From positions 434,001 through 498,000 of the forward strand of contig JANSYR010000001.1 in assembly GCA_024742285.1 (NCBI GenBank): a stretch of 64,000 bases of DNA, read 5' to 3'. Numbering within the stretch: position 1 is the first letter of the stretch; every line of letters begins with the position of its first letter. The stretch is from a bacterium. GTDB taxonomy: Bacteria; Myxococcota_A; UBA9160; UBA4427. The position numbers and the translations under genes are program-made. Shown here in pieces: positions 32,675 to 43,805 of this stretch. The notes under the pieces were generated by a model. That model did not search any database. It had not been told where the DNA came from and saw only the letters and a program-made list of their open reading frames with translations.

Positions 32675-33076
32675 ATCGGTGATTCCGGCAGAGCCCGATG
32701 GGATTTCCCGTCCCCAATTCCCTCGCCGCAGGCACTCCCATTCATGGCGTCGATCCTCCGATCACGAAAGGCGATCGGCACGGTTCTTGCTCAAACGCGG
32801 GTGCGGACACGTCGCCCGTCCAGGCAGGCGACGCCACCGCGACCGGGAAAGACGGGAAGTCGGCCTCCCCGGGCGTTTCGAACCTGCCCTCCGGCGCATT
32901 CGCAGCTTCTGCTGCGTACTCCGGAGGGGAAATAGTTGAAGTTGAGTTCCACTTCTTGCGCAACGGATCCGAGGCCTCTCGTGAAATCGAGCGGCCGAGG
33001 CGCGCAGGCAGGTGGCAAGGGTCGAGCAATCGGGTGCCGGAACACGAGCGGCCCAGAGCAGAAGAAGCGAGATGAG
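32675..33076. other. 402-base gap after the IS3 remnant
   Basis: I see no gene. The region upstream of the PEP-CTERM gene contains an AT-richer patch (GGGGAAATAGTTGAAGTTGAG near 32930) that could be a promoter. The plus frame of the next gene is open back to 32936 but lacks a signal peptide there. Confidence 0.4.
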
Positions 33077-33895
33077 ATGAGAACGACGATGACTCAGCCC
33101 CCCCGAGCCGCTCGCCCGGAGATTCGTGGACGTGCCCTGGGAATCTTCGTGATCGCCGCCCTCCTGATGGCGCCTGGCGTCGGAAGTGCCGCCTTGATCA
33201 CCCTCACCTTCGACGATGGCGCCTACGATCCGACGATCGTCTACCCGGGCGGAGAGCTGCACGGCCCCTACGACTGGATCGAGTCGAACGGGATCCGGGC
33301 GGCCGGATTCTGGGCGACGGACGTGGGTACGCCGAGCGCCGCGTTCCAGCTCGGGCATACGCACGTGCAGCCGAACTGGTCCGGACGACCGGATGGCCGA
33401 TACGAGCGGATGCACTCCTGGACCGACGACCTGCAGGGGCTCAACATCTCCCTCGAGAGCGGGGCGCGCTTCGACGTCGTGTCGATCGACTACTCGATTC
33501 GGGAAAGGATCTCGACGGTGCCCGATCTCAAGCGGCTTCCCTGGGCGACGGGCCCCGACGACGCCCAGATCCTGTTGAGCACCGAATTCGATCCGACCGT
33601 CGCGGACCTCGAGAGTCAGTGGACCGCCTTCGCCATCGACGACTACGGGTTGCCCTACAGGCCCTGGTTCACCCTGGACGTCTCGGGCTTCGACAACGTT
33701 TCGAGCTTCTATCTTTCGCAGACCATCGCGGGCCTCGGAATCGACACCATCGTGCTCGACGTGCACAGCGTCACGCCCGTCCCCGAGCCCTCCACGGCGC
33801 TGCTGATCGGCCTCGGGCTGGCGGGACTCTCGCGCCGGGCCTCTCGGCCCGTTCCGGAGGCGGCGCTCGGCCTCCGGGATCGACACCGTCGGTAG
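33077..33895 (+). CDS. PEP-CTERM exported protein
   Basis: 272 residues from the ATG at 33077; an ATG at 33089 is also possible. A signal peptide (ALGIFVIAALLMAPGVGSA) is followed by a beta-rich domain starting ALITLTFDDGAYDPTIVYPGGELHGPYDWIESNGIRAAGFWATD and containing DDLQGLNISLESGARFDVVSIDYS. It ends with the sorting signal VPEPSTALLIGLGLAGL and a basic tail. The middle resembles the jelly-roll domain seen in many short PEP-CTERM proteins. It is a substrate for an exosortase encoded elsewhere. Confidence 0.88.
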   Translation: MRTTMTQPPRAARPEIRGRALGIFVIAALLMAPGVGSAALITLTFDDGAYDPTIVYPGGELHGPYDWIESNGIRAAGFWATDVGTPSAAFQLGHTHVQPNWSGRPDGRYERMHSWTDDLQGLNISLESGARFDVVSIDYSIRERISTVPDLKRLPWATGPDDAQILLSTEFDPTVADLESQWTAFAIDDYGLPYRPWFTLDVSGFDNVSSFYLSQTIAGLGIDTIVLDVHSVTPVPEPSTALLIGLGLAGLSRRASRPVPEAALGLRDRHRR

Positions 33896-34123: not shown

Positions 34124-35344
34124 TCAGCTGCCCCCCGTACGAAGCGCGGCAGGACGCGACGGCGACGTGACCGGGGGCATCGCGTCCGCGAACCGCGTCT
34201 CCGACGAGAGCCGCGCGATCGTTCGTGTCAGAAGACCGAGTCCAATGGAGAGGCACTCGTCCGGAAAGCGGTAGTCGTCGTGGTGCAACGCTGCGGCTTC
34301 CATGCCGGCTCCGAGTCCGAAGTACACGGACGGCCATCGCAGGGAATAGACGCCGAAGTCCTCGGACCAGGCGAACGGCGCGTCCGCGGTCCGGACGTCG
34401 ACCCCCCGCGCGCGAGCGCAGTCGGCCAACACGCGCGTGAGGCCCGGGTCGTTGCGGCAAGCCGGGAACGACTCGTGCCAGCTGAGCGCGTGACTGAGTT
34501 CGTGTTCGCTCGCGACCGAGACCACGAGCTCCTCGACGGTGCGCTTCAACGGCCGAAGCGAGGCGTCGTCTTCCGCGCGCAGCGTCGCGAGCACCTCGGC
34601 ATGCCCCGGCGAGAGACCGAACGACGGACGTCCGAGCGAGGCGTGAGTGACCGTGACGATGCGACCTCCGTCGAGGCTCGCTGCGACCTGCGAGAGACCG
34701 AGGAGCAGATCGGCGACGGCGAGGGTCGGCGGGCGCGCGAGCTCCGGCTGCGCCGCGTGCCCCGGGATGCCGTCGAGTCGCACGCGTACGCCCGTGGAGG
34801 CGCGCGTGAAGAGTCCTTCCCTGACGACGACCGACCCGAGCGGATGCCCCGGCAGGTTGTGGAAGCCGAGGACCGCATCGGGCCGCAGGGTCTCGAACCG
34901 CGCATCGTCGACGATTCGCAACGCGCCTTCGCCGGTCTCTTCGGCGGGCTGGAAGAGCAGCACGACGCGCCCCTTCGCCGGCGGCGAGTACCGAAGGATC
35001 GGAGCGAGGCCGGCGACGATCGACATGTGCCCGTCATGTCCACAGCGGTGCGCAGCGGATCGCTTCGCGAGTGGTTCCGCGCTCCCGTCCGGCTCGACCG
35101 CAAGGGCGTCGAGTTCGCAGCGAACGACGAGGGTCGGGCCCTCTTCTCCGCTCTCGAACACCGCGGCGACACCATGCCCCCCTAGACCGAGCAGGAGCTC
35201 GTCCGGCGCGTAGACCGAAAGGAAGTTCGCGATGATCTGCGCGGTGAGCGCCTCGTGACCGGCGGGCTCGGGCACGTCGTGGAGGGTGCGTCGAAGGGTC
35301 GCGAGGGAGTCCAGCAGCAGTCGGTCGGGGAGCGCGTCGATCAT
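34124..35344 (-). CDS. M20-family amidohydrolase (last gene of the sigma-54 operon)
   Basis: 406 residues from the ATG at 35344; the frame runs open to 36520 but overlaps the symporter gene. M20D-type metallo-amidohydrolase features are the metal ligands AHRCGHDGHMS, the catalytic FQPAEETGEGALRIVDD, GFHNLPGHPLGSVVVREG, the lid domain with GIPGHAAQPELARPPTLAVADLLL, and the C-terminal HHDDYRFPDECLSIGL. Relatives remove acyl groups from N-acyl amino acids or split small peptides. It starts 17 bases after the symporter gene. With the GNATs and ligase upstream, a likely role is to hydrolyse the acetylated or peptide product or an imported relative. Confidence 0.92.
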   Translation of the reverse strand: MIDALPDRLLLDSLATLRRTLHDVPEPAGHEALTAQIIANFLSVYAPDELLLGLGGHGVAAVFESGEEGPTLVVRCELDALAVEPDGSAEPLAKRSAAHRCGHDGHMSIVAGLAPILRYSPPAKGRVVLLFQPAEETGEGALRIVDDARFETLRPDAVLGFHNLPGHPLGSVVVREGLFTRASTGVRVRLDGIPGHAAQPELARPPTLAVADLLLGLSQVAASLDGGRIVTVTHASLGRPSFGLSPGHAEVLATLRAEDDASLRPLKRTVEELVVSVASEHELSHALSWHESFPACRNDPGLTRVLADCARARGVDVRTADAPFAWSEDFGVYSLRWPSVYFGLGAGMEAAALHHDDYRFPDECLSIGLGLLTRTIARLSSETRFADAMPPVTSPSRPAALRTGGS

Positions 35345-35361: not shown

Positions 35362-36615
35362 TCAGCGCTCTCCCGCATCGCCCACCACGGCGCCGACCGC
35401 GGCCGCGCCGACGGCATCCCCCCAGACGTTCACCGCGGTGCGGAAGCGATCGATCAGCCAGTCGATCGCGAGCAGGAGCCCGAGGCCCTCGAGCGGGAGA
35501 CCGACGGCCTCGAGGACGACGACCATCGTGACGAGACCGGCCTCGGGAATGCCCGCGGCGCCGATCGTCGAGAGCGTCGCCGTCACGAAGAGGGCCACCA
35601 TCGCGCCCGCGTCGAGGTCGACACCCACGGCCTGGGCGATGAAGACCGCGGCGACCGCCTCGTAGAGCGCGGATCCGTCCATGTTGACCGTCGCGCCGAG
35701 CGGAAGCACGAACCGGCTGACGTTCGCGTCGACGCCCGCTTCCTCCACGGCGTCGAGCGTGAGTGGGAGCGTCGCCGAGGAGCTCGCCGTGGCGAACGCC
35801 GTCGTGAGCGGCGTGCCCAGATCGCGCGCGTAGGCGAACGGATCGCGTCGAGCGACGAGTGTGAGCACGAGGCCCAGCGTGAGAATGCCATGGATCGCGA
35901 GCCCGCCGACGACGGTCAAGGTGAACCACCCGAGCCCGGTCAGCAGCGCGACGATTCCCTCGCTCCCGCCGGCTGCGCCGAGTCGCGCGGCCACTAGGCC
36001 GAACACGCCGATCGGTCCGAGCAGGATGATTCCGTGGACCATCTTGAGGATCGCGGCGAACACGCCCTCCACCAGCTCGGAGACGGGTCGACCACGATCG
36101 CCGATCATCGAGAGCGCGATCCCGAACGCGAGCGCGAAGAGGATCAGCGGAACGAGGTCGCCCGCCGTCGCCGAAGCGACGAGGTTGGGCGAGAGCAGAT
36201 TGCGCAGGACGTCCTGCCAATCCGTGCGACCCGCCGCGGAGGTAGCCACGTCCGGCGTCGCCGCACCCAACAGGTCGACGCCCTCGCCGGGCGCGATCAC
36301 GGTCACGGCGACCACGCCGAGTCCGATCGCACACGCGGTCGTCCCGAGATAGTAGATGGCGGTCGCGGAGCCCAGACGGCCGAGACGCCCCGAGTCTCCG
36401 ATCGAGGAGACGCCGTGCACCACGGAGAAGACGATCAGCGGGATCACCGTCATCCGGAGCGGCAGCAGCCACAGTTCGCCGAGGATTCCGACCTGCGCCG
36501 CCCGCTCGGGCGCGACCCATCCGAAGACGCCGCCGAGCAGAGCACCGGCCGCCATCGCAGCCAGCAAGCGATGGGATCTCGATCCCGCGCTCGCTTCCGG
36601 CTCAGCCGTGGACAC
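35362..36615 (-). CDS. Dicarboxylate/amino acid:cation symporter (DAACS, GltP-like)
   Basis: 417 residues from a GTG at 36615, preceded by GAGGGGGGCGCC. Eight membrane helices and two hairpins are recognisable. Signatures are the serine-rich hairpin FATASSSATLPLTLDAVEEAG, the helix-7 motif NMDGSALYEAVAAVFIAQA (NMDGT-like), GIPEAGLVTMVVVLEAVGLP and helix 8 AIDWLIDRFRTAVNVWGDAVGA, which keeps the Asp and Arg-Thr region that contacts acidic amino acids in glutamate transporters. The probable substrate is glutamate, aspartate or a C4-dicarboxylate, with Na+ or H+. It follows the papain-like gene by 105 bases on the same strand. Confidence 0.93.
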   Translation of the reverse strand: MSTAEPEASAGSRSHRLLAAMAAGALLGGVFGWVAPERAAQVGILGELWLLPLRMTVIPLIVFSVVHGVSSIGDSGRLGRLGSATAIYYLGTTACAIGLGVVAVTVIAPGEGVDLLGAATPDVATSAAGRTDWQDVLRNLLSPNLVASATAGDLVPLILFALAFGIALSMIGDRGRPVSELVEGVFAAILKMVHGIILLGPIGVFGLVAARLGAAGGSEGIVALLTGLGWFTLTVVGGLAIHGILTLGLVLTLVARRDPFAYARDLGTPLTTAFATASSSATLPLTLDAVEEAGVDANVSRFVLPLGATVNMDGSALYEAVAAVFIAQAVGVDLDAGAMVALFVTATLSTIGAAGIPEAGLVTMVVVLEAVGLPLEGLGLLLAIDWLIDRFRTAVNVWGDAVGAAAVGAVVGDAGER

Positions 36616-36720
36616 GGCGCCCCCCTCGCCCGGACTGCCCGCTGCGCCCGTGCGGTGCTCTCGCGCCGCGACCCGCCTCGCGTCCGCCCGCTTCACTCCC
36701 ACTCGGGATCATCGCCACGC

Positions 36721-38793
36721 TCACCGCCACTCGAAGTCCCGCCCCCACGTCTCGCGTGCGTGCGTCTCGATCTCGTCGATCGTCTCCTGCGGGACAGCGA
36801 AGCCGTCGCCGACCTCGTAGGGGTTGTAGTGGAAGGCATAGAGGTGGGCGGCAAAGTGCTCGAAGGGAAGCGAAGACTCGCCCGGCACCTCGCCATGCCC
36901 ACGCACGGTCGGTTCGACGTCACGGCCCCAGCGCTGCCGTCCCTCGTTGTTCGGATTGAAGAAGTACACCCGCAAGTCACCGCCGCCGTCGGACGTCACG
37001 CGCTGGATCGAGATCGCGTGGTATCCGAGGAGCTGGCCGTGGACGTCGGTCACGAAGATTCCGACCGGGTTCGGATAGATCAGATCGGCGTGGTCTGCGT
37101 AGCCCGGATGATGCGTCGCGAAGAAGAGACGGACGAACTCCGCGTAGCCCAGAACGCTCGCGCCGCCGACGTCGAAGATCGACGCGAAACCGTTCGGGAC
37201 CCAGCGTCCGTAGAGCGCGGGGTTCACCCATTTGTGCGGATCCTCGCCGCGGAGGGAGGCCTGCCGCATCATCTCGTCGTAGATGCGGTCGAGATGCGGC
37301 ACGAGGATGCGCGAGACCGGGTCCAGCGACGTCGTGTCGAAGACGCCTTCGGCGACGCCCCCTCCGAGTTCGTCGGACCGCAGCGGCCGGCCTTCGAAGG
37401 GAATCTCCACGGTCCCGTCCCGCGCGGCGCCCACGAGGTGCTCGAGGAGGTATCCCGGCGCCTGGAGACTCCACATACTGATCGCCCGTGCCGCCACGCA
37501 CGTCGGGTTCGAGCCCTGCCCCACGCCGAGCGGCTGCCCGAGAACGGAGACGACGCCCGCGATGAGCGCGCCATTCGCCGTCATCCCACTCCCGGAAGGC
37601 AAGGGGTCGAGGAGTGCCGAACGGACCTCGCTCCGCAGGTCGATCGTCCCCAGCTTGGCGAGAGAAGTCGCGACCTCCGGGCGTGAGAGCAGAGATCGCT
37701 CGAGCATCTGCGAGAGTCCGTGAATCGCGTCACAGGTCGCGGGCGTGATCGCCGCACCGATCAGATTCGCGACCAGCTCCGCGTTCTGCTCGAGGTCCGC
37801 CCTGCCCACGTCCGACAGACCGAGTGCGGTCGCGACCCGGTCGACGTCGCGCCGCACGCGGCGGAGCAGCACGGCGTGGAACCCGCTGGAGAGCCCCGTC
37901 GAGGCGAGCAGCTCTCCGAGCAGGGACACCTCTGAATCGACCGTCGCGTCTCCGGACTCGACGAGGTGGGCCCGGTAGGCAGTCAGCGAGCCGGCCACTT
38001 CTGCACTCGCGGACGGGAAACGACTCGCGCGGACGAAGCGATCGAGGCGCGCACGCGTTGCGTCCGACTCGCCGTCGACGGGAATCGACGTCGCCTGTTG
38101 GACGAGCCGGTGCAGCACGTCCACGCGAATCGGGCGCTGGGCCGCACGCTGCTCGATCTCTTCGACGACGCGGTCCAGGAGGCCGTCGGTCGGGATCTCC
38201 TCCTCGATCAGGCGAAAGAGGCGACGCGCTCTCGCCATCACCCGCGGCCGGACACGCGCCTCTTCCGTCTCCCCCTCGCCGTAGAGGAGATCGAGATTCA
38301 GCTTCATCACGTCCGAGAGGAACCGCCTCGCGTCGTCCTCCGACAGGTGCTCGTTCGCGTACTCCCCAGCGGCGATCGACAGCAATCGAATCTCGCTCAG
38401 CGCTTCTACGGTCGGGTAGACGCCTTCGCCGCGCAGCCCGGCGGCGACGAGCTCGGGAACCAGCCGGTCGACGCGTTCCCATGGACCGCCGCGAAAGACG
38501 CCAGCAGCGTCGAAGCGGCGGGCGTGGTGCCTGACGAAGCCGATGCTCTCGTCGTCGTCCAGTCCCTCCGCCGCGAGTCGGAAGAGTTCGGTCTGGTAGC
38601 GCGCCTTCGCGAAATCCCTCGCGCCTTCGAGATCGTCGAGGGCACGGACGAACGACGAAGCCCAGGCCCCGGTAGCCGGATGCGGCTGCGCTGCGCCGCT
38701 CTCGGGCGGCGCTGGTGGCTTGGCTGCCTTCGTCCGGGTATCCGCCGGAGGCGTTCCGGGAGAGCCCGCCGGGTGAGTGGTGGGATCAGACAT
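36721..38793 (-). CDS. Large protein with C-terminal papain-like Cys-His-Asn site (unknown family)
   Basis: 690 residues from the ATG at 38793, which overlaps the ATP-grasp stop in ATGTCTGA. Residues 1-40 are Pro/Ala-rich. Residues about 45-410 are mostly helical with no family I recognise (ARRFDAAGVFRGGPWERVDRLVPELV). The C-terminal 280 residues contain GVGQGSNPTCVAARAISMW: Gln426 is exactly six residues before Cys432, as in papain (Q-G-S-x3-C). His592 (LLGYHAISIQ) and Asn613 (YFFNPNNEG) follow with papain-like spacing. Residues C432, H592, N613 therefore form a plausible catalytic triad. It could be a peptidase, a transpeptidase or an amide-forming acyltransferase. No signal peptide is seen. 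Position between a peptide ligase and a glutamate-type symporter suggests work on a peptide or acyl amino acid. Confidence 0.75.
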   Translation of the reverse strand: MSDPTTHPAGSPGTPPADTRTKAAKPPAPPESGAAQPHPATGAWASSFVRALDDLEGARDFAKARYQTELFRLAAEGLDDDESIGFVRHHARRFDAAGVFRGGPWERVDRLVPELVAAGLRGEGVYPTVEALSEIRLLSIAAGEYANEHLSEDDARRFLSDVMKLNLDLLYGEGETEEARVRPRVMARARRLFRLIEEEIPTDGLLDRVVEEIEQRAAQRPIRVDVLHRLVQQATSIPVDGESDATRARLDRFVRASRFPSASAEVAGSLTAYRAHLVESGDATVDSEVSLLGELLASTGLSSGFHAVLLRRVRRDVDRVATALGLSDVGRADLEQNAELVANLIGAAITPATCDAIHGLSQMLERSLLSRPEVATSLAKLGTIDLRSEVRSALLDPLPSGSGMTANGALIAGVVSVLGQPLGVGQGSNPTCVAARAISMWSLQAPGYLLEHLVGAARDGTVEIPFEGRPLRSDELGGGVAEGVFDTTSLDPVSRILVPHLDRIYDEMMRQASLRGEDPHKWVNPALYGRWVPNGFASIFDVGGASVLGYAEFVRLFFATHHPGYADHADLIYPNPVGIFVTDVHGQLLGYHAISIQRVTSDGGGDLRVYFFNPNNEGRQRWGRDVEPTVRGHGEVPGESSLPFEHFAAHLYAFHYNPYEVGDGFAVPQETIDEIETHARETWGRDFEWR

Positions 38794-40009
38794 AGAAGTC
38801 GTACTCCTCGTAGTGTTCCACCAGCTCGCGAAGGACCTTCGGATCCTCTCCTGAAAAGAAGATCGTTCCATAGTGATTTCCGAATCCGATCCGTTCGGCG
38901 ACCTTGCTGGTCGCGGGTTCGAACATGTCGTGGCGCTCGAAGCAGGGGTGCTCGAGCAGAGCCGACGGCATGTCGAGCTCATGGACGCGCTCCTGCCGGG
39001 GGTAGACCATCAGGTTGGCCGAGTACCTCGTGGCCTCGGGGGCCGGCGGGAAGAAGCGGTCGAGCTCCTCTTCCGTCGTCTCCGGGCGCGCACAGAGCAC
39101 ATACGCTCCGTAGGCGTTGAAGCCGTGTGCTTCGCTGATCAGGTCGAAGATGTGTCCACCGGGGACGCGCGCAGCGACCTCGCCGAAGTTCAGATCGCCG
39201 TCGGCGTCGACGAAGTACTCGGGATGAATCACGCCGTACTCGACCTGGAACGCGCGAATCAGCTTCTCGACGGCCGCCTCGATCCGATCGCGGTATCGAT
39301 CTAGATCGGGCGACGCGGGAACGATCTGCGAGTAGCCGAGATGGACGTACTCCGTGATGTTCATGAAGCGAATCCGGCCGCGGTGGACGAAGGCCTCGAC
39401 CGAGAACTCCTGTCCGGAGATGTGGCTCTCCGCGAGGCACGGAAAGGCGTCGTCGGGAAGCGCCGCGACGTCGTCCTCCGAACCGATCACGACATGACCG
39501 ACGCTGCCCGCCGCGTTGAGCGGCTTCACGTGCACGGGGTCCGAGACGTCCTCGTGGGTCCGCAACATCGCCCGGTTCACGCGGCGGAAGAATTGCAGCG
39601 CGTCGTCGCGCGACGCGATCTCCTCGAAGACACCGACGCGAATGCCGTTCAGCTGCGCGTTCCGCTTCATCATCGCCTTGTCGCGGAAGAGGAGCGACCG
39701 CTGGAACGAGCGCGGATCTTCCCGCAGGACGCCGTTCACGGCCCCCGCCCATTCGACGGTTTCCTCGTAGAGCGGAACCGCGACGCTCGCACCGCGCTCG
39801 GAGAGCCGCTCTGCGAGTCGGCCCGACTCTTCGTTGCGGAGCCCGAAGTCCCAGGACTCCACGGGGATCCCGTCCTTCTCCAGCTGGTCGACGAAAGGCT
39901 CCGGGACGACGGCAATGAAGGGAACGTCGAGCTCGGTGGCCGCTTCCATCGTTTCGACGCTGTAGCCGAGGAGCGCGATCGGACGCCGATCGGTCGATGA
40001 CTCAGACAT
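38786..40009 (-). CDS. ATP-grasp ligase, probable L-amino acid/dipeptide ligase
   Basis: 407 residues from the ATG at 40009 (ATGTCTGA overlap with the GNAT upstream). The N-terminal Rossmann-like domain (ALLGYSVETMEAATELDVPFIAVVPEP) is followed by the ATP-grasp domain: RDKAMMKRNAQLNGIRVG, the adenine-site Lys in VHVKPLNAAGSVGHVVI, GQEFSVEAFVHRGRI, and the magnesium site HPEYFVDADGDLNFGEVAARVPGGHIFDLI with Glu and Arg. This pattern resembles BacD/carnosine-synthase-type ligases that join carboxyl and amino groups through an acyl phosphate. In context it should couple an amino acid or N-acetylated amino acid to another amine. Confidence 0.88.
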   Translation of the reverse strand: MSESSTDRRPIALLGYSVETMEAATELDVPFIAVVPEPFVDQLEKDGIPVESWDFGLRNEESGRLAERLSERGASVAVPLYEETVEWAGAVNGVLREDPRSFQRSLLFRDKAMMKRNAQLNGIRVGVFEEIASRDDALQFFRRVNRAMLRTHEDVSDPVHVKPLNAAGSVGHVVIGSEDDVAALPDDAFPCLAESHISGQEFSVEAFVHRGRIRFMNITEYVHLGYSQIVPASPDLDRYRDRIEAAVEKLIRAFQVEYGVIHPEYFVDADGDLNFGEVAARVPGGHIFDLISEAHGFNAYGAYVLCARPETTEEELDRFFPPAPEATRYSANLMVYPRQERVHELDMPSALLEHPCFERHDMFEPATSKVAERIGFGNHYGTIFFSGEDPKVLRELVEHYEEYDFYV

Positions 40010-40766
40010 GATTCGAGACCTCCTCTCGCTGGGAAAGGCCCGCGGCGCGTCGTGCGGACAGGTCCGCGGCGCGCGAGTGCTCCGCGATCGCCCAGCTGCG
40101 CGGAGCCGAGGCGGAACGGGCCTCCCTGTCGTCGGCCGGCTCGACGGCGAGCCCGTAGAGTTCGAAGCCCTCCTCGTAGTAGGGAGCGAGCCAACCGTCG
40201 TGCCAATCGAGCACCTCGTCGCGTTTCGTGGCGATCCGCTCGAAGCCGAAGCGGGTGTAGGCGCGGGTCGCCCACGTCGCCTCGGGATGCGCGATCAGCA
40301 CGAGGCCACGTTTGCCCTGGCGTCGGGCGCACTCGGCCGCGTGATCGAGCAGCTGAGGGCCGAACCTGCGTCCGGTCTCGTGCTCATAGACGTAGACGTA
40401 CCCCAGGTAGAGCCAGTCCCCGGCTTCCTGCGTGGACAGCACGCCGACGGGGTCGCCGCCGGACCAGCCGAGAAAAAAATCTCGCCGGTCGAAATTCTCT
40501 TCGATCCACTCCGGACCGACGTCGTGCTCGGACATGTCCTCGGGCTCGAGGAAAGGGCGGTACCAGTCGGCGGTCGAGCGCAGGATGTCCGCCGCGATCG
40601 GCATCTCCGCCCGCGTAGCGCGGCGTACGGTCATCCGGTCGCCGCGACGCGCGGCGCCTCGTCGACGTGGGCCGCTGGACCCGGGACGTGGGCCCGAGGC
40701 CAGGTCTCGTCCGCGGGGTCGAGCGCGCTCGGAGCGCTCGGTGGTGGGTGTCGTTTCGGCACTCAT
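40002..40766 (-). CDS. GNAT-family N-acetyltransferase (first of the ligase operon pair)
   Basis: 254 residues from the ATG at 40766, chosen for its strong ribosome site (AGGAGAACTGAAAC); a second ATG at 40634 would remove a 44-residue Pro/Arg/Gly-rich leader. The GNAT domain runs from MTVRRATRAEMPIAADIL through DFFLGWSGGDPVGVLSTQEAGDWLYLGYVYVYEHETGRRFGPQLLDHAAECARRQGKRGLVLIAHPEATWATRAYTRFGFERI, with acetyl-CoA loop GRRFG. A C-terminal region of about 65 residues (DEVLDWHDGWLAPYYEEGFELYGL) is unfamiliar. The start is 3 bases after the stop of the other GNAT. It probably acylates an amino group of the pathway intermediate. Confidence 0.87.
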   Translation of the reverse strand: MSAETTPTTERSERARPRGRDLASGPRPGSSGPRRRGAARRGDRMTVRRATRAEMPIAADILRSTADWYRPFLEPEDMSEHDVGPEWIEENFDRRDFFLGWSGGDPVGVLSTQEAGDWLYLGYVYVYEHETGRRFGPQLLDHAAECARRQGKRGLVLIAHPEATWATRAYTRFGFERIATKRDEVLDWHDGWLAPYYEEGFELYGLAVEPADDREARSASAPRSWAIAEHSRAADLSARRAAGLSQREEVSNHV

Positions 40767-40769
40767 GTT

Positions 40770-41315
40770 TCAGTTCTCCTTGGTTTCGGGACTCGGTATT
40801 CGGGGGGACGGGGAAGGGATCGGGGGAGACGGAGCGCCGTCGACGACAGCGTCCGAAGCCGTCGGAGCGAACGCCGCACGCTTCATGCGAATCCGCTCGC
40901 GACCGTCGAAGCCGCGATGTCGACTCACGGGCCGGAATCCGTATCGCTCGAAGAAGGCGGGCTGCGTCGTGCGGCACCACACGTCGATCGAGCGGGCGAG
41001 TTCGTCGCAGAGGAGCGGCTCGAGGACCGCACGTGCCAACCCGCGGCCGCGAAACTCGCGCGCGACGGCGACGGATCGCAACGACAGCGCGCCGTCCTCC
41101 GCGGGAAGGAGCGCAGCAGCAGCGACGACGGTCTTCGTGTCCGACGGCGTCGCGACCAGGAATCGGTGGGCGTGGGTACGAATCCACGCCTCCGGCTCCG
41201 GGACGCAGTTGCCCGCGGTTGCGCGCAGCAACGCCGAGATGGACGCGGCGTCGTCGCGACGCCCCGCTCGCAAGACGATCGAGGTGTCTGGGATCATCGA
41301 TTCGAGCCGACTCAT
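40770..41315 (-). CDS. GNAT N-acetyltransferase, ArgA/NAGS-like
   Basis: 181 residues from the ATG at 41315, in an ATGA overlap with the kinase stop. The GNAT core is IVLRAGRRDDAASISALL, RFLVATPSDTKTVVAAAALLPAEDGALSLRSVAVAREFRGRGLARAVLEPLL (acetyl-CoA loop RGRGLA) and WCRTTQPAFFERYGFRPVSRHRGFDG. The TQPAFFERYGFRP stretch and overall length resemble the short acetylglutamate synthases and the GNAT domain of ArgA. Beside a kinase with N-acetylglutamate-binding residues, making N-acetylglutamate or a close relative is the best guess. The C-terminal 25 residues are Pro/Ser-rich. Confidence 0.87.
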   Translation of the reverse strand: MSRLESMIPDTSIVLRAGRRDDAASISALLRATAGNCVPEPEAWIRTHAHRFLVATPSDTKTVVAAAALLPAEDGALSLRSVAVAREFRGRGLARAVLEPLLCDELARSIDVWCRTTQPAFFERYGFRPVSRHRGFDGRERIRMKRAAFAPTASDAVVDGAPSPPIPSPSPRIPSPETKEN

Positions 41316-42220
41316 GCGCTGATTCGCAGATCGCGCTCGTCTTCGGCGTCCGACTCGATGCGGGTCGCGAGGCCGGCCGCGAAGTCGTCGAAGCCGCCGA
41401 GCCGGACGGTCGGCACCCCCGCGCCGCAGCCGTCCGCTTCCGACGCGAAACGGGCCGCCCGGAGCTTCGGGATCATGCCGTCGGTCGCGACGCCCTCCTC
41501 GATCAGGTCGTCGATTTCGTCGGTCGAGATCGCGTCGACCGCTCGGCCCGCCGCGTCTCGCAGCGGCCCGGTCGTCACGAGATCGAGCCGGTCCGCCCCG
41601 AGCGCGCGCGCGATCGCGCCGGCCGCGACGTCGCCGTTCACGTTCATCACCTGATGCGACGGCCCCCGCGCGATCGGCGCGACGAGCGGAACCACGCCGT
41701 CGTCGAGCAGGCGCCAGACTCCGCGCGGATCGACGGTCGGTACGTCACCGACCTGCCCATAGCGCGCGAGGTCGAGGGGCTCGGCGCGGAGCAGGTCGTC
41801 GTCGAGACCGCTCAGCGACGATGCCTCGATCCCGACTTCGGCCATCGCGGCCAGGACGCGCGGCGCGACGAGGCCGCAGAGCGCCGCAGCGACGAGCGCA
41901 GCCCCCGATTCGGTGGTGACGCGGAGACCGCCTTCGTAGGTGCTGGGCAGGCCCGCCATGTCGAGCAGGGTCGAGATCTCCGGGCTGCCGCCGTGGACGA
42001 CGACGAGGCGTCCGCGAAGCGACTCCCGTTCCAGCATGAGCTGAAGCGCCTGGATGGCGCCGTGGGGTTCGAGCGCGCTTCCCCCCAGCTTGATCACCAC
42101 GAGGGGATCGCGGGCGTTCCGGCGGGTGGCGCCGTGCCTCGCACGGCGCTCGGGAACGGGCGGGTCGACCAGCGGGCGAATGGGTTGGGTGTTGCGGTGG
42201 GAGTCGAGCCGAAGTTGCAT
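41312..42220 (-). CDS. N-acetylglutamate kinase-like amino acid kinase (first gene of the operon)
   Basis: 302 residues from the ATG at 42220; ATG at 42229 or GTG at the VVIKLGG segment are alternatives because no clear ribosome site exists. The amino acid kinase fold shows VVIKLGGSAL (catalytic Lys), VVVHGGSPEISTLLDMAG (phosphate loop), YEGGLRVTTE (Arg that binds the N-acetylglutamate carboxylate), MNVNGDVAAGAIARALGAD (Asn and Asp that bind substrate) and TDGMIPKLRAA (second catalytic Lys). These are the ArgB signatures. About 40 Arg/Pro-rich residues precede the domain. No argC or argD is nearby, so it is not an arginine operon. A sigma-54-type promoter ends about a dozen bases before this start. 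Confidence 0.88.
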   Translation of the reverse strand: MQLRLDSHRNTQPIRPLVDPPVPERRARHGATRRNARDPLVVIKLGGSALEPHGAIQALQLMLERESLRGRLVVVHGGSPEISTLLDMAGLPSTYEGGLRVTTESGAALVAAALCGLVAPRVLAAMAEVGIEASSLSGLDDDLLRAEPLDLARYGQVGDVPTVDPRGVWRLLDDGVVPLVAPIARGPSHQVMNVNGDVAAGAIARALGADRLDLVTTGPLRDAAGRAVDAISTDEIDDLIEEGVATDGMIPKLRAARFASEADGCGAGVPTVRLGGFDDFAAGLATRIESDAEDERDLRISA

Positions 42221-42242
42221 CTGATTCATGGCGGGCTGCATG

Positions 42243-42259
42243 TGCAGGGCCCGTGCCAA
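42243..42259 (-). promoter_or_regulatory. Sigma-54 (-24/-12) promoter for the kinase-ligase operon
   Basis: Minus-strand sequence TTGGCACGGGCCCTGCA matches the consensus YTGGCACG-N4-TTGCA with one mismatch (CTGCA for TTGCA). The invariant GG and GC are at the correct spacing. Transcription should start near 42233, just before the kinase start codon at 42220/42229. A sigma-54 activator is encoded divergently, strengthening the call. Confidence 0.75.
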
Positions 42260-42306
42260 CGCCCGAGCAGCCTCTGCACGGATGCTCTCACGAGACGGGA
42301 CATACT

Positions 42307-42365
42307 TGGCACCTCGAAAAGTGCCACCCATGGCACTCTCGTCCAGAACGGGTCATAGTTGGCAC
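42307..42365. promoter_or_regulatory. Candidate enhancer: TGGCAC/GTGCCA repeat cluster
   Basis: Four copies of one hexamer lie here: TGGCAC at 42307-42312, GTGCCA at 42321-42326, TGGCAC at 42331-42336 and TGGCAC at 42360-42365. The first two form a 6-8-6 inverted repeat and the second and third a 6-4-6 inverted repeat. They are about 75-130 bases upstream of the predicted sigma-54 start, where activators normally bind, and directly before the activator gene, so autoregulation is likely. Confidence 0.55.
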
Positions 42366-43805
42366 GTGTCCGAAGCCAATGCCGCCGAGAGCAACTCCGA
42401 GAACGTCGTCGTCGTCTTGAATTCGCGCCGCGCGGCGAACTGGCTCGCGCGAGCCGGCTGGGAGACCCGCGAGATCGCCAGCCCGAGCGAGTTCAACGGG
42501 CTGCGCGAGGGACGCAGCGCGCGCGTGATCGTCGTCGGGTGTGGCCGCTCTGGCCCCGAACGAACCGCCGAAGTGGTCGAGCAGCTGCACGCGGCGGCTC
42601 CACTGGTCGACGTCGTCGTGTGGCGCGCAGGCGCATCGGCCGATTTCGTGCGCGCGAGCTTCCGCGCAGGCGCGCACGACGTGGTCCTCGGGGACACCGC
42701 GCAAGCCCTCGTCGAGGCGACGGAGCAGGCCTTCCAGCGGCAGCGCCTGTTGCCGCAGGTCGAGAACCTGAGCCGGGCGCGCCATCGCAGCGGCCGCTTC
42801 GAGGGCATGCTGAGCCGAAACGACGTGATGTGGGACATCTTCATGACCATCACCCGAACCGCCGCGACCGAAGCGACGGTGCTCGTGACCGGCGAGACTG
42901 GCACGGGCAAGGATCTGGTCGCCCGCGCCATCCACCGACGCTCGGGCCGCGACGGTCGCTTCGTCGCCGTCAACTGCAGCTCGATCCGGCCCGAGATCGT
43001 CGAGTCGGAGCTCTTCGGTCACGAGCGGGGCGCGTTCACCGGCGCGAACCAGTCGAAGGAAGGCCTCTTCCGGCACGCGGACGGCGGGACGCTGCTGCTG
43101 GACGAGATCGGGGACATGCCGGGAGAGGCACAGCTGAGCCTCCTGCGTGTCCTCCAGGAGGAGCGGATCCGACCCGTGGGCGCGACGAGGGAGGTGCCCG
43201 TCAACGTCCGCGTCGTCGCGGCGACCAACGCGCCGCTCACGGACCAGGTGCGCGATGGGTCCTTTCGCGAGGACCTCTTCTACAGACTCGACGTGATCCG
43301 CATCGAGATCCCACCGCTTCGAGACCGACGCGAAGACGTGCTGTATCTCTTCGGGCATCTCCTGCGGACGCACTGCAAGCGCTACGGCGTCGACCGCCCC
43401 CACCTGAACCAGGGCTTCATCGACCGCCTCACGGAATACGACTGGCCCGGGAACGTGCGACAGCTCGAGAACGTCACCGAGCGGCTCGTTCTCGAGGGCG
43501 ATCGCGAGACGCTCGCCCCCCGCGATCTGAACCGGGTGCTACCGAAGACCGAGGAGTCCGCGACCGCGAGGCCTGCGAGTGACCGGGTTCCCCAACCGGT
43601 CGACTCGAAGCTCGACACGGAGATTCCGCTCGCGACCCACCTGGATACCGCGCGCGAGCGGATCGAGCGCGAGTACCTGGAGGCGGTGCTCACGGAACAG
43701 TCCGGGCAGGTACTGAAGGCCGCGGAGCTCGCCGGGATCAGTCGCCGCACCATGTTCCGGAAGATGAAGGAGCACGGCCTGGACAAGCAGGACTATCGCC
43801 CTTAG
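42366..43805 (+). CDS. Sigma-54-dependent activator (EBP) with degenerate receiver domain
   Basis: 479 residues from the GTG at 42366; ATG at 42330 is an in-frame alternative. Residues about 13-125 look like a receiver fold but lack the acidic pocket and phospho-Asp (VVVVLNSRR, VIVVGCGRS), while FRAGAHDVVLGD resembles the receiver end. The AAA+ domain has Walker A GETGTGKD (176-183), the sigma-54-contacting GAFTGA (222-227), Walker B LLLDEIGDM and the Arg finger region FYRLDVIRIEIPPLRDR. The C-terminal Fis-type helix-turn-helix is LKAAELAGISRRTMFRKMKEHGL. Divergent position and the promoter found next to it point to control of the kinase-ligase operon by a non-phosphorylation signal. Confidence 0.95.
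   Translation: MSEANAAESNSENVVVVLNSRRAANWLARAGWETREIASPSEFNGLREGRSARVIVVGCGRSGPERTAEVVEQLHAAAPLVDVVVWRAGASADFVRASFRAGAHDVVLGDTAQALVEATEQAFQRQRLLPQVENLSRARHRSGRFEGMLSRNDVMWDIFMTITRTAATEATVLVTGETGTGKDLVARAIHRRSGRDGRFVAVNCSSIRPEIVESELFGHERGAFTGANQSKEGLFRHADGGTLLLDEIGDMPGEAQLSLLRVLQEERIRPVGATREVPVNVRVVAATNAPLTDQVRDGSFREDLFYRLDVIRIEIPPLRDRREDVLYLFGHLLRTHCKRYGVDRPHLNQGFIDRLTEYDWPGNVRQLENVTERLVLEGDRETLAPRDLNRVLPKTEESATARPASDRVPQPVDSKLDTEIPLATHLDTARERIEREYLEAVLTEQSGQVLKAAELAGISRRTMFRKMKEHGLDKQDYRP

Follow-up and report, generated by a model that had tools for sequence, protein, structure and literature searches.

Papain-like enzymes of clan CA, among them calpain, bleomycin hydrolase, staphopain and the C1B dipeptidyl aminopeptidases, present their catalytic residues in the order Gln-Cys-His-Asn, with a spacing of six residues between Gln and Cys, a helix starting at the Cys and the His lying in a strand. 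Their fold has also been recruited outside proteolysis, since BtrH-type acyltransferases of the butirosin pathway (BtrH_N, near C39 and C70) perform acyl transfer in small-molecule biosynthesis (PMC10318531). The 2023 classification of papain-like proteins is organized around Pfam families (PMC10318531).

Glutathionylspermidine/trypanothione synthetase-amidases combine an ATP-dependent ligase with a cysteine amidase of papain-like type, the substrate of which is a small amide. The synthetase half of these enzymes has an ATP-grasp-type fold. L-amino-acid ligases such as RizA (4wd3) and BL00235 (3vot) have, to our knowledge, no papain-like partner. The pathway of N-acetylglutaminylglutamine amide follows a logic of GNAT plus ATP-grasp enzymes that yields a neutralized dipeptide, with a peptidase encoded nearby; its product is a known osmolyte dipeptide (PMC1224877).

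The protein analyzed here is encoded in a stretch of 64,000 nucleotides, hereafter called the window, and is given the working name PAP (papain-like protein). It belongs to a family with invariant, presumably catalytic residues that has neither a Pfam or NCBIfam model nor an assigned function, and thus differs from the families around which the 2023 classification was built (PMC10318531). Our literature searches found no description of the gene pair that PAP forms with an adjoining ATP-grasp ligase. The pair resembles the synthetase-amidases in its general composition, and in the polyamine-linked neighbours of some PAP paralogues, but consists of separate genes, with a partner related to L-amino-acid ligases and a Gln-Cys-His-Asn site; no Pfam match to the CHAP amidase or GSP_synth domains was found in PAP or its partner. 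With the N-acetylglutaminylglutamine amide pathway the PAP cluster has in common the combination of GNAT and ATP-grasp enzymes, whereas in the window cluster these are separate proteins, an asparagine-synthetase-like gene is missing and no window protein matches the NCBIfam models for the enzymes of that pathway. PAP differs from BtrH-type enzymes in having no Pfam match and a triad ending in Asn, and no acyl-carrier protein was seen in the window cluster.

The papain-like protein and its presumed active site

PAP is encoded by an open frame of 690 codons on the minus strand (36721..38793). A previous sequence-only reading had delimited this frame correctly and had recognized in it a papain-like site formed by Q426, C432, H592 and N613, a numbering that proved exact, including the spacing of six residues from Gln to Cys as in papain. 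It had also noted that a signal peptide is absent, in agreement with a maximal 19-residue hydropathy of 0.24 within residues 1-60, a region in which hydropathy analysis reveals no membrane segment or hydrophobic leader. Residues 1-40 are disordered in the AlphaFold2 prediction and precede an all-helical domain (residues 41-400, 37594..38673, minus strand) and a C-terminal domain (residues 396-690, 36724..37608, minus strand). Neither alone nor as a set or profile of 24 members does PAP match Pfam, NCBIfam or PDB sequences, and scanning all 24 members against Pfam with loose E-values (up to E 1) returned only scattered chance hits.

The alignment of homologues proposed in the sequence-only reading gave a clear outcome: the four residues do not vary in 24 of 24 relatives, nor in the enlarged set of 45, which includes all PAP paralogues. 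Such a level of invariance far exceeds chance, and every one of the 45 sequences has the clan CA order Q-C-H-N. On the minus strand of the window, the codons concerned are those of Gln426 (37516..37518), presumed to lie in the oxyanion hole, Cys432 (37498..37500), the presumed nucleophile at the start of helix 432-444, His592 (37018..37020), the presumed general base, and Asn613 (36955..36957), which presumably completes the triad.

AlphaFold2 models the protein with confidence, at a pLDDT of 86 over its full length and 85 in the C-terminal domain. A helix begins exactly at C432, H592 lies within strand 588-601 and N613 comes after strand 607-612. When the C-terminal domain was compared with known structures by Foldseek, calpain, bleomycin hydrolase, staphopain and related papain-type enzymes led the matches (best E 0.005, probability 0.77), even if none had E < 0.001 and TM-scores were about 0.3. 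The structural check envisaged in the sequence-only reading leaves the papain topology uncontradicted, with papain-type enzymes at the head of the matches, but does not provide a match at the stricter threshold. Sequence profiles link PAP to no papain family: its members have no Pfam match to peptidase family C1 (PF00112), none of the 24 members matches Transglutaminase-like, BtrH, C39 or CHAP models at E up to 1, and the profile-profile comparison with C1 peptidases by hhalign, in which the C1 alignment consisted of three sequences only, was not significant (E 0.07). The sole local alignment in this weak comparison places H592 and the Ala following it on the catalytic His-Ala of C1 peptidases. 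The papain-like nature of the C-terminal domain, as modeled, has good but not conclusive support.

PAP is further distinguished from clan CA enzymes by the lack of a signal peptide, by its fixed ligase partner and by an extra helical domain of about 360 residues, which the sequence-only reading had rightly called unfamiliar. Foldseek searches with the full model are dominated by generic helical repeat proteins and yield no credible relative for this domain. Six of its residues, E130, R136, E177, R180, Q219 and T299, are invariant in the 45 sequences, suggesting that it has a specific role.

The ATP-grasp partner and the distribution of the pair

The strongest property of PAP is its partnership with an ATP-grasp ligase, the gene of which lies immediately upstream (38786..40009, minus strand) and overlaps that of PAP by 8 bases. 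The partner matches PF13535 above cut-off and, in profile searches of the PDB, finds the L-amino-acid ligase RizA (4wd3) first, with the weak similarity of E 3.5e-10; RizA and BL00235 (3vot), both of the dipeptide-forming kind, are its closest relatives of solved structure. Alignment with 4wd3 shows that the ATP-grasp domain retains the conserved catalytic motif, GEVAARVPGG in the partner corresponding to GEIAMRIGGG. The partner was found in all 14 PAP genomes tested. Among 398 genomes of Pseudomonadota, 11 contain both PAP and this ATP-grasp subfamily and the others contain neither, while among 294 genomes of Planctomycetota both are confined to the same six. If treated as independent draws, the co-occurrence in Pseudomonadota would have a probability of about 1e-21, a value that is indicative only because the genomes are related; indeed, these counts are not phylogenetically independent and the Pseudomonadota hits are mostly Halomonas-like. 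The pairwise distances within the two families are also correlated (r = 0.93), a value reached in none of 1000 permutations.

One scan of a genome collection retrieved 25 PAP loci, distributed among Nitrospirota, Planctomycetota, Myxococcota, Bdellovibrionota, Bacteroidota, Gammaproteobacteria, Eiseniibacteriota, Bacillota (Scopulibacillus) and a metagenome-assembled genome labelled Euryarchaeota. Later searches added Halomonas, ten other Pseudomonadota genomes, judged Halomonas-like from their synteny and their place in the tree, and further Planctomycetota; overall, the 45 relatives span at least seven phyla. No PAP relative was found in phages, and the plasmid collection contained one Halomonas replicon with PAP, devoid of gene annotation. 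In a sample of the phylum to which the window belongs, a genuine PAP copy is present in the window genome only, and the phylogenetic tree places its sequence beside those of Nitrospirota; this combination makes it likely that the window PAP was acquired by horizontal transfer. In one Nitrospirales locus (L023, 6778-9953) the frames of the ATP-grasp ligase and PAP are in pieces, owing to either sequencing error or decay.

Gene neighbourhoods and predicted sigma-54 control

The window operon, on the minus strand, includes a second argB for acetylglutamate kinase (41312..42331, likely start 42220; TIGR00761 above cut-off), a better-scoring argB being located on another contig (C28). Two GNAT acetyltransferases follow: GNAT1 (40770..41315), which resembles N-acetylglutamate synthase through weak NCBIfam matches (PRK07757/PRK07922) and has a homologue within the arg operons of L009, L021 and L007, and GNAT2 (40002..40766, likely start 40634; PF00583), which adjoins the core in many loci and is present in eight of the 14 PAP genomes but missing from the other six. 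Downstream of PAP, at a distance of 18 bases, lies a sodium:dicarboxylate symporter (35362..36702; PF00375), and the operon ends with an M20 amidohydrolase (34124..35344, start inferred; PF01546, TIGR01891). Of the two neighbours highlighted in the sequence-only reading, the ligase is near-universal across loci, whereas the transporter adjoins PAP only in the window and in Nitrospirota; reading of the loci led us to reject the symporter as a constant partner. The plus strand next to the operon encodes a protein (32936-33895) that carries a PEP-CTERM sorting motif at its C-terminus.

A divergent gene for a sigma-54 activator (42228..43805, plus strand; PF00158), the annotated start of which is probably too early, lies next to argB. 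A -24/-12 promoter sequence, TGGCACGGGCCCTGC, lies at 42244..42258 (minus strand); the pattern matches nowhere else in the window, where 0.07 occurrences would be expected. The combination predicts that the operon is controlled by sigma-54. Homologues of the activator are divergent from the cluster in nine other loci (L003-L007, L009, L015, L021 and L023), and upstream sigma-54 elements are perfect in L009 and L021 and weaker in L015, L006, L003, L004 and L023. The palindrome TGAGACA-N4-TGTCTCA, found between the activator gene and the first operon gene in L003, L005, L006, L023 and L007 but not in the window, is a plausible candidate for the activator binding site. The interval between activator and argB in the window (42270-42370) contains several TGGCAC/GTGCCA half-sites and palindromes, for instance AGTGCCATGGGTGGCACT, which are not common to other loci.

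A link with ornithine and arginine recurs in several lineages. In L009 the gene order is argC, argB, argD, GNAT1, argJ, GNAT2, ATP-grasp and PAP, and the same gene set is present in L021; in a further genome of Planctomycetota, portions of this set are spread over two contigs (L066 and L067). In six Nitrospirota loci, one of which was tested by profile, argG follows the symporter, and the window has its second argB. The arg link is real, though not always a duplication. In genome G198 the argB and argJ of the cluster are the only copies, so that the arg linkage there may reflect ordinary operon growth instead of dedicated supply, which weakens the idea that the clusters generally carry their own source of ornithine.

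Other neighbours vary. In three loci, which represent two phyla, PAP is immediately followed by a gene for alanine racemase (L011 9985-11151, L022 2621-3886 and L017 10117-11325); these racemases are 52-75% identical, exceeding 50% even between phyla, and some products may contain a D-amino acid. Two Halomonas-like paralogues of PAP follow genes for putrescine-type ABC transporters, with no ligase adjoining (L096 2941-8870 and L098 7280-13458). Both fall within a single clade that has Ile in place of R436, and we speculate that R436 binds a carboxylate of the substrate that is missing from the substrate of these paralogues. Genes of the histone-deacetylase family are found beside one PAP (L094) and one GNAT2 (L050), an M20 enzyme is beside the GNAT2 of L051, and an operon for an Mrp-type antiporter follows PAP in L018. 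Several hosts have the two core genes alone.

Possible reactions and products of the pair

PAP and its ligase probably make, or make and break, a small amide. We give about an even chance to the specific proposal that the adjoining ligase produces a small amide and that PAP, a papain-type enzyme of the cytoplasm, acts upon it. The constant association with the ligase is compatible with the suggestion of the sequence-only reading, namely a transpeptidase, amidase or acyltransferase located in the cytoplasm; catalysis, substrate, product and role are inferred. In the proposed mechanism, the ligase would couple an amino acid with an amine; the likeliest building block in the window is ornithine or one of its derivatives, and the upstream genes there would feed acetylglutamate or ornithine into the pathway. 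Cys432, activated by His592 and Asn613 and with Gln426 in the oxyanion hole, would attack the resulting amide to form an acyl-enzyme, from which another amine or, with lower likelihood, water would take over the acyl group. An optional modification would be the acetylation by GNAT2 of an amine in either the precursor or the product. As a guess, the product would be an accumulated solute or a nitrogen store. Transfer in biosynthesis, which falls a little short of an even chance, is favoured over turnover because neither gene has been found without the other; the same observation favours a shared pathway over scavenging.

Hydrolytic turnover nevertheless deserves consideration as a possible, if doubtful, reaction of PAP. 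In its pure form, equally tentative, PAP would be only the amidase of a make-and-break pair, hydrolyzing back the amide that the ATP-grasp enzyme makes. Glutathionylspermidine/trypanothione synthetase/amidase provides a precedent for coupling a synthetase with a papain-like cysteine amidase (PMC2784880, PMC6272389), but PAP and its partner have no CHAP or GSP_synth match in Pfam. The paralogues in putrescine-type importer operons, with no ligase adjoining, are what would be expected for the breakdown of an imported compound, and hydrolases of the HDAC and M20 types lie near some members. Constant co-transcription, however, would produce futile cycling unless regulated, and a ligase without PAP was never seen among the 398 Pseudomonadota and 294 Planctomycetota genomes. 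Moreover, many accumulated solutes are, as far as we know, made without a dedicated hydrolase.

It is improbable that the pair modifies proteins, with the ATP-grasp enzyme adding amino acids that PAP removes or processes, since the partner resembles ligases of free amino acids instead of RimK, the neighbours are small-molecule genes of amino acid and polyamine metabolism, and the many invariant polar residues would suggest a defined small substrate. There is nonetheless a precedent in RimK, an ATP-grasp enzyme that acts with the protease RimB on ribosomal protein S6, and in a Pseudomonas operon of this ATP-grasp/protease kind that affects osmotic tolerance (PMC12239564); the large helical domain of PAP could bind a protein. 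We hold in similarly low regard the production of a secreted signal or antibiotic-like peptide in place of an accumulated solute: in clusters for peptide natural products, acetyltransferases and BtrH-type enzymes of papain-like fold do accompany ATP-grasp ligases (PMC2922099), and L011, L022 and L017 have an alanine racemase after PAP, but the window cluster has no exporter, resistance or tailoring genes by Pfam and NCBIfam, several hosts have the two core genes alone and the same two genes recur in very different phyla. That PAP is an ordinary cytoplasmic protease, functionally unrelated to its neighbour, is very unlikely; the tendency towards a papain-like fold and the triad speak for it, against which stand its exact co-occurrence with the ligase, the linked evolution of the two families and the lack of likeness to peptidase families in sequence profiles. 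A protease function of PAP is unsupported, though it keeps a small probability.

The hosts and the Mrp-type antiporter of L018 suggest that the product may be a salt-related solute, a link based on host names (soda-lake, marine, Halomonas) and few neighbours. The complete scenario, in which an amino-acid ligase and a papain-type acyltransferase equipped with a new helical domain make an ornithine-linked amide as osmolyte or nitrogen store, in hosts that span at least seven phyla and comprise Halomonas, is put forward tentatively and may well be wrong in some part. With only two genes and one small molecule involved, the fixed partnership with the ligase renders the function of the family testable in a standard laboratory strain. 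Should the product be a solute, the pair would constitute a new biosynthetic route beside those of known compatible solutes; and if PAP is a transferase, it would be a papain-type enzyme that builds amides rather than cutting proteins.
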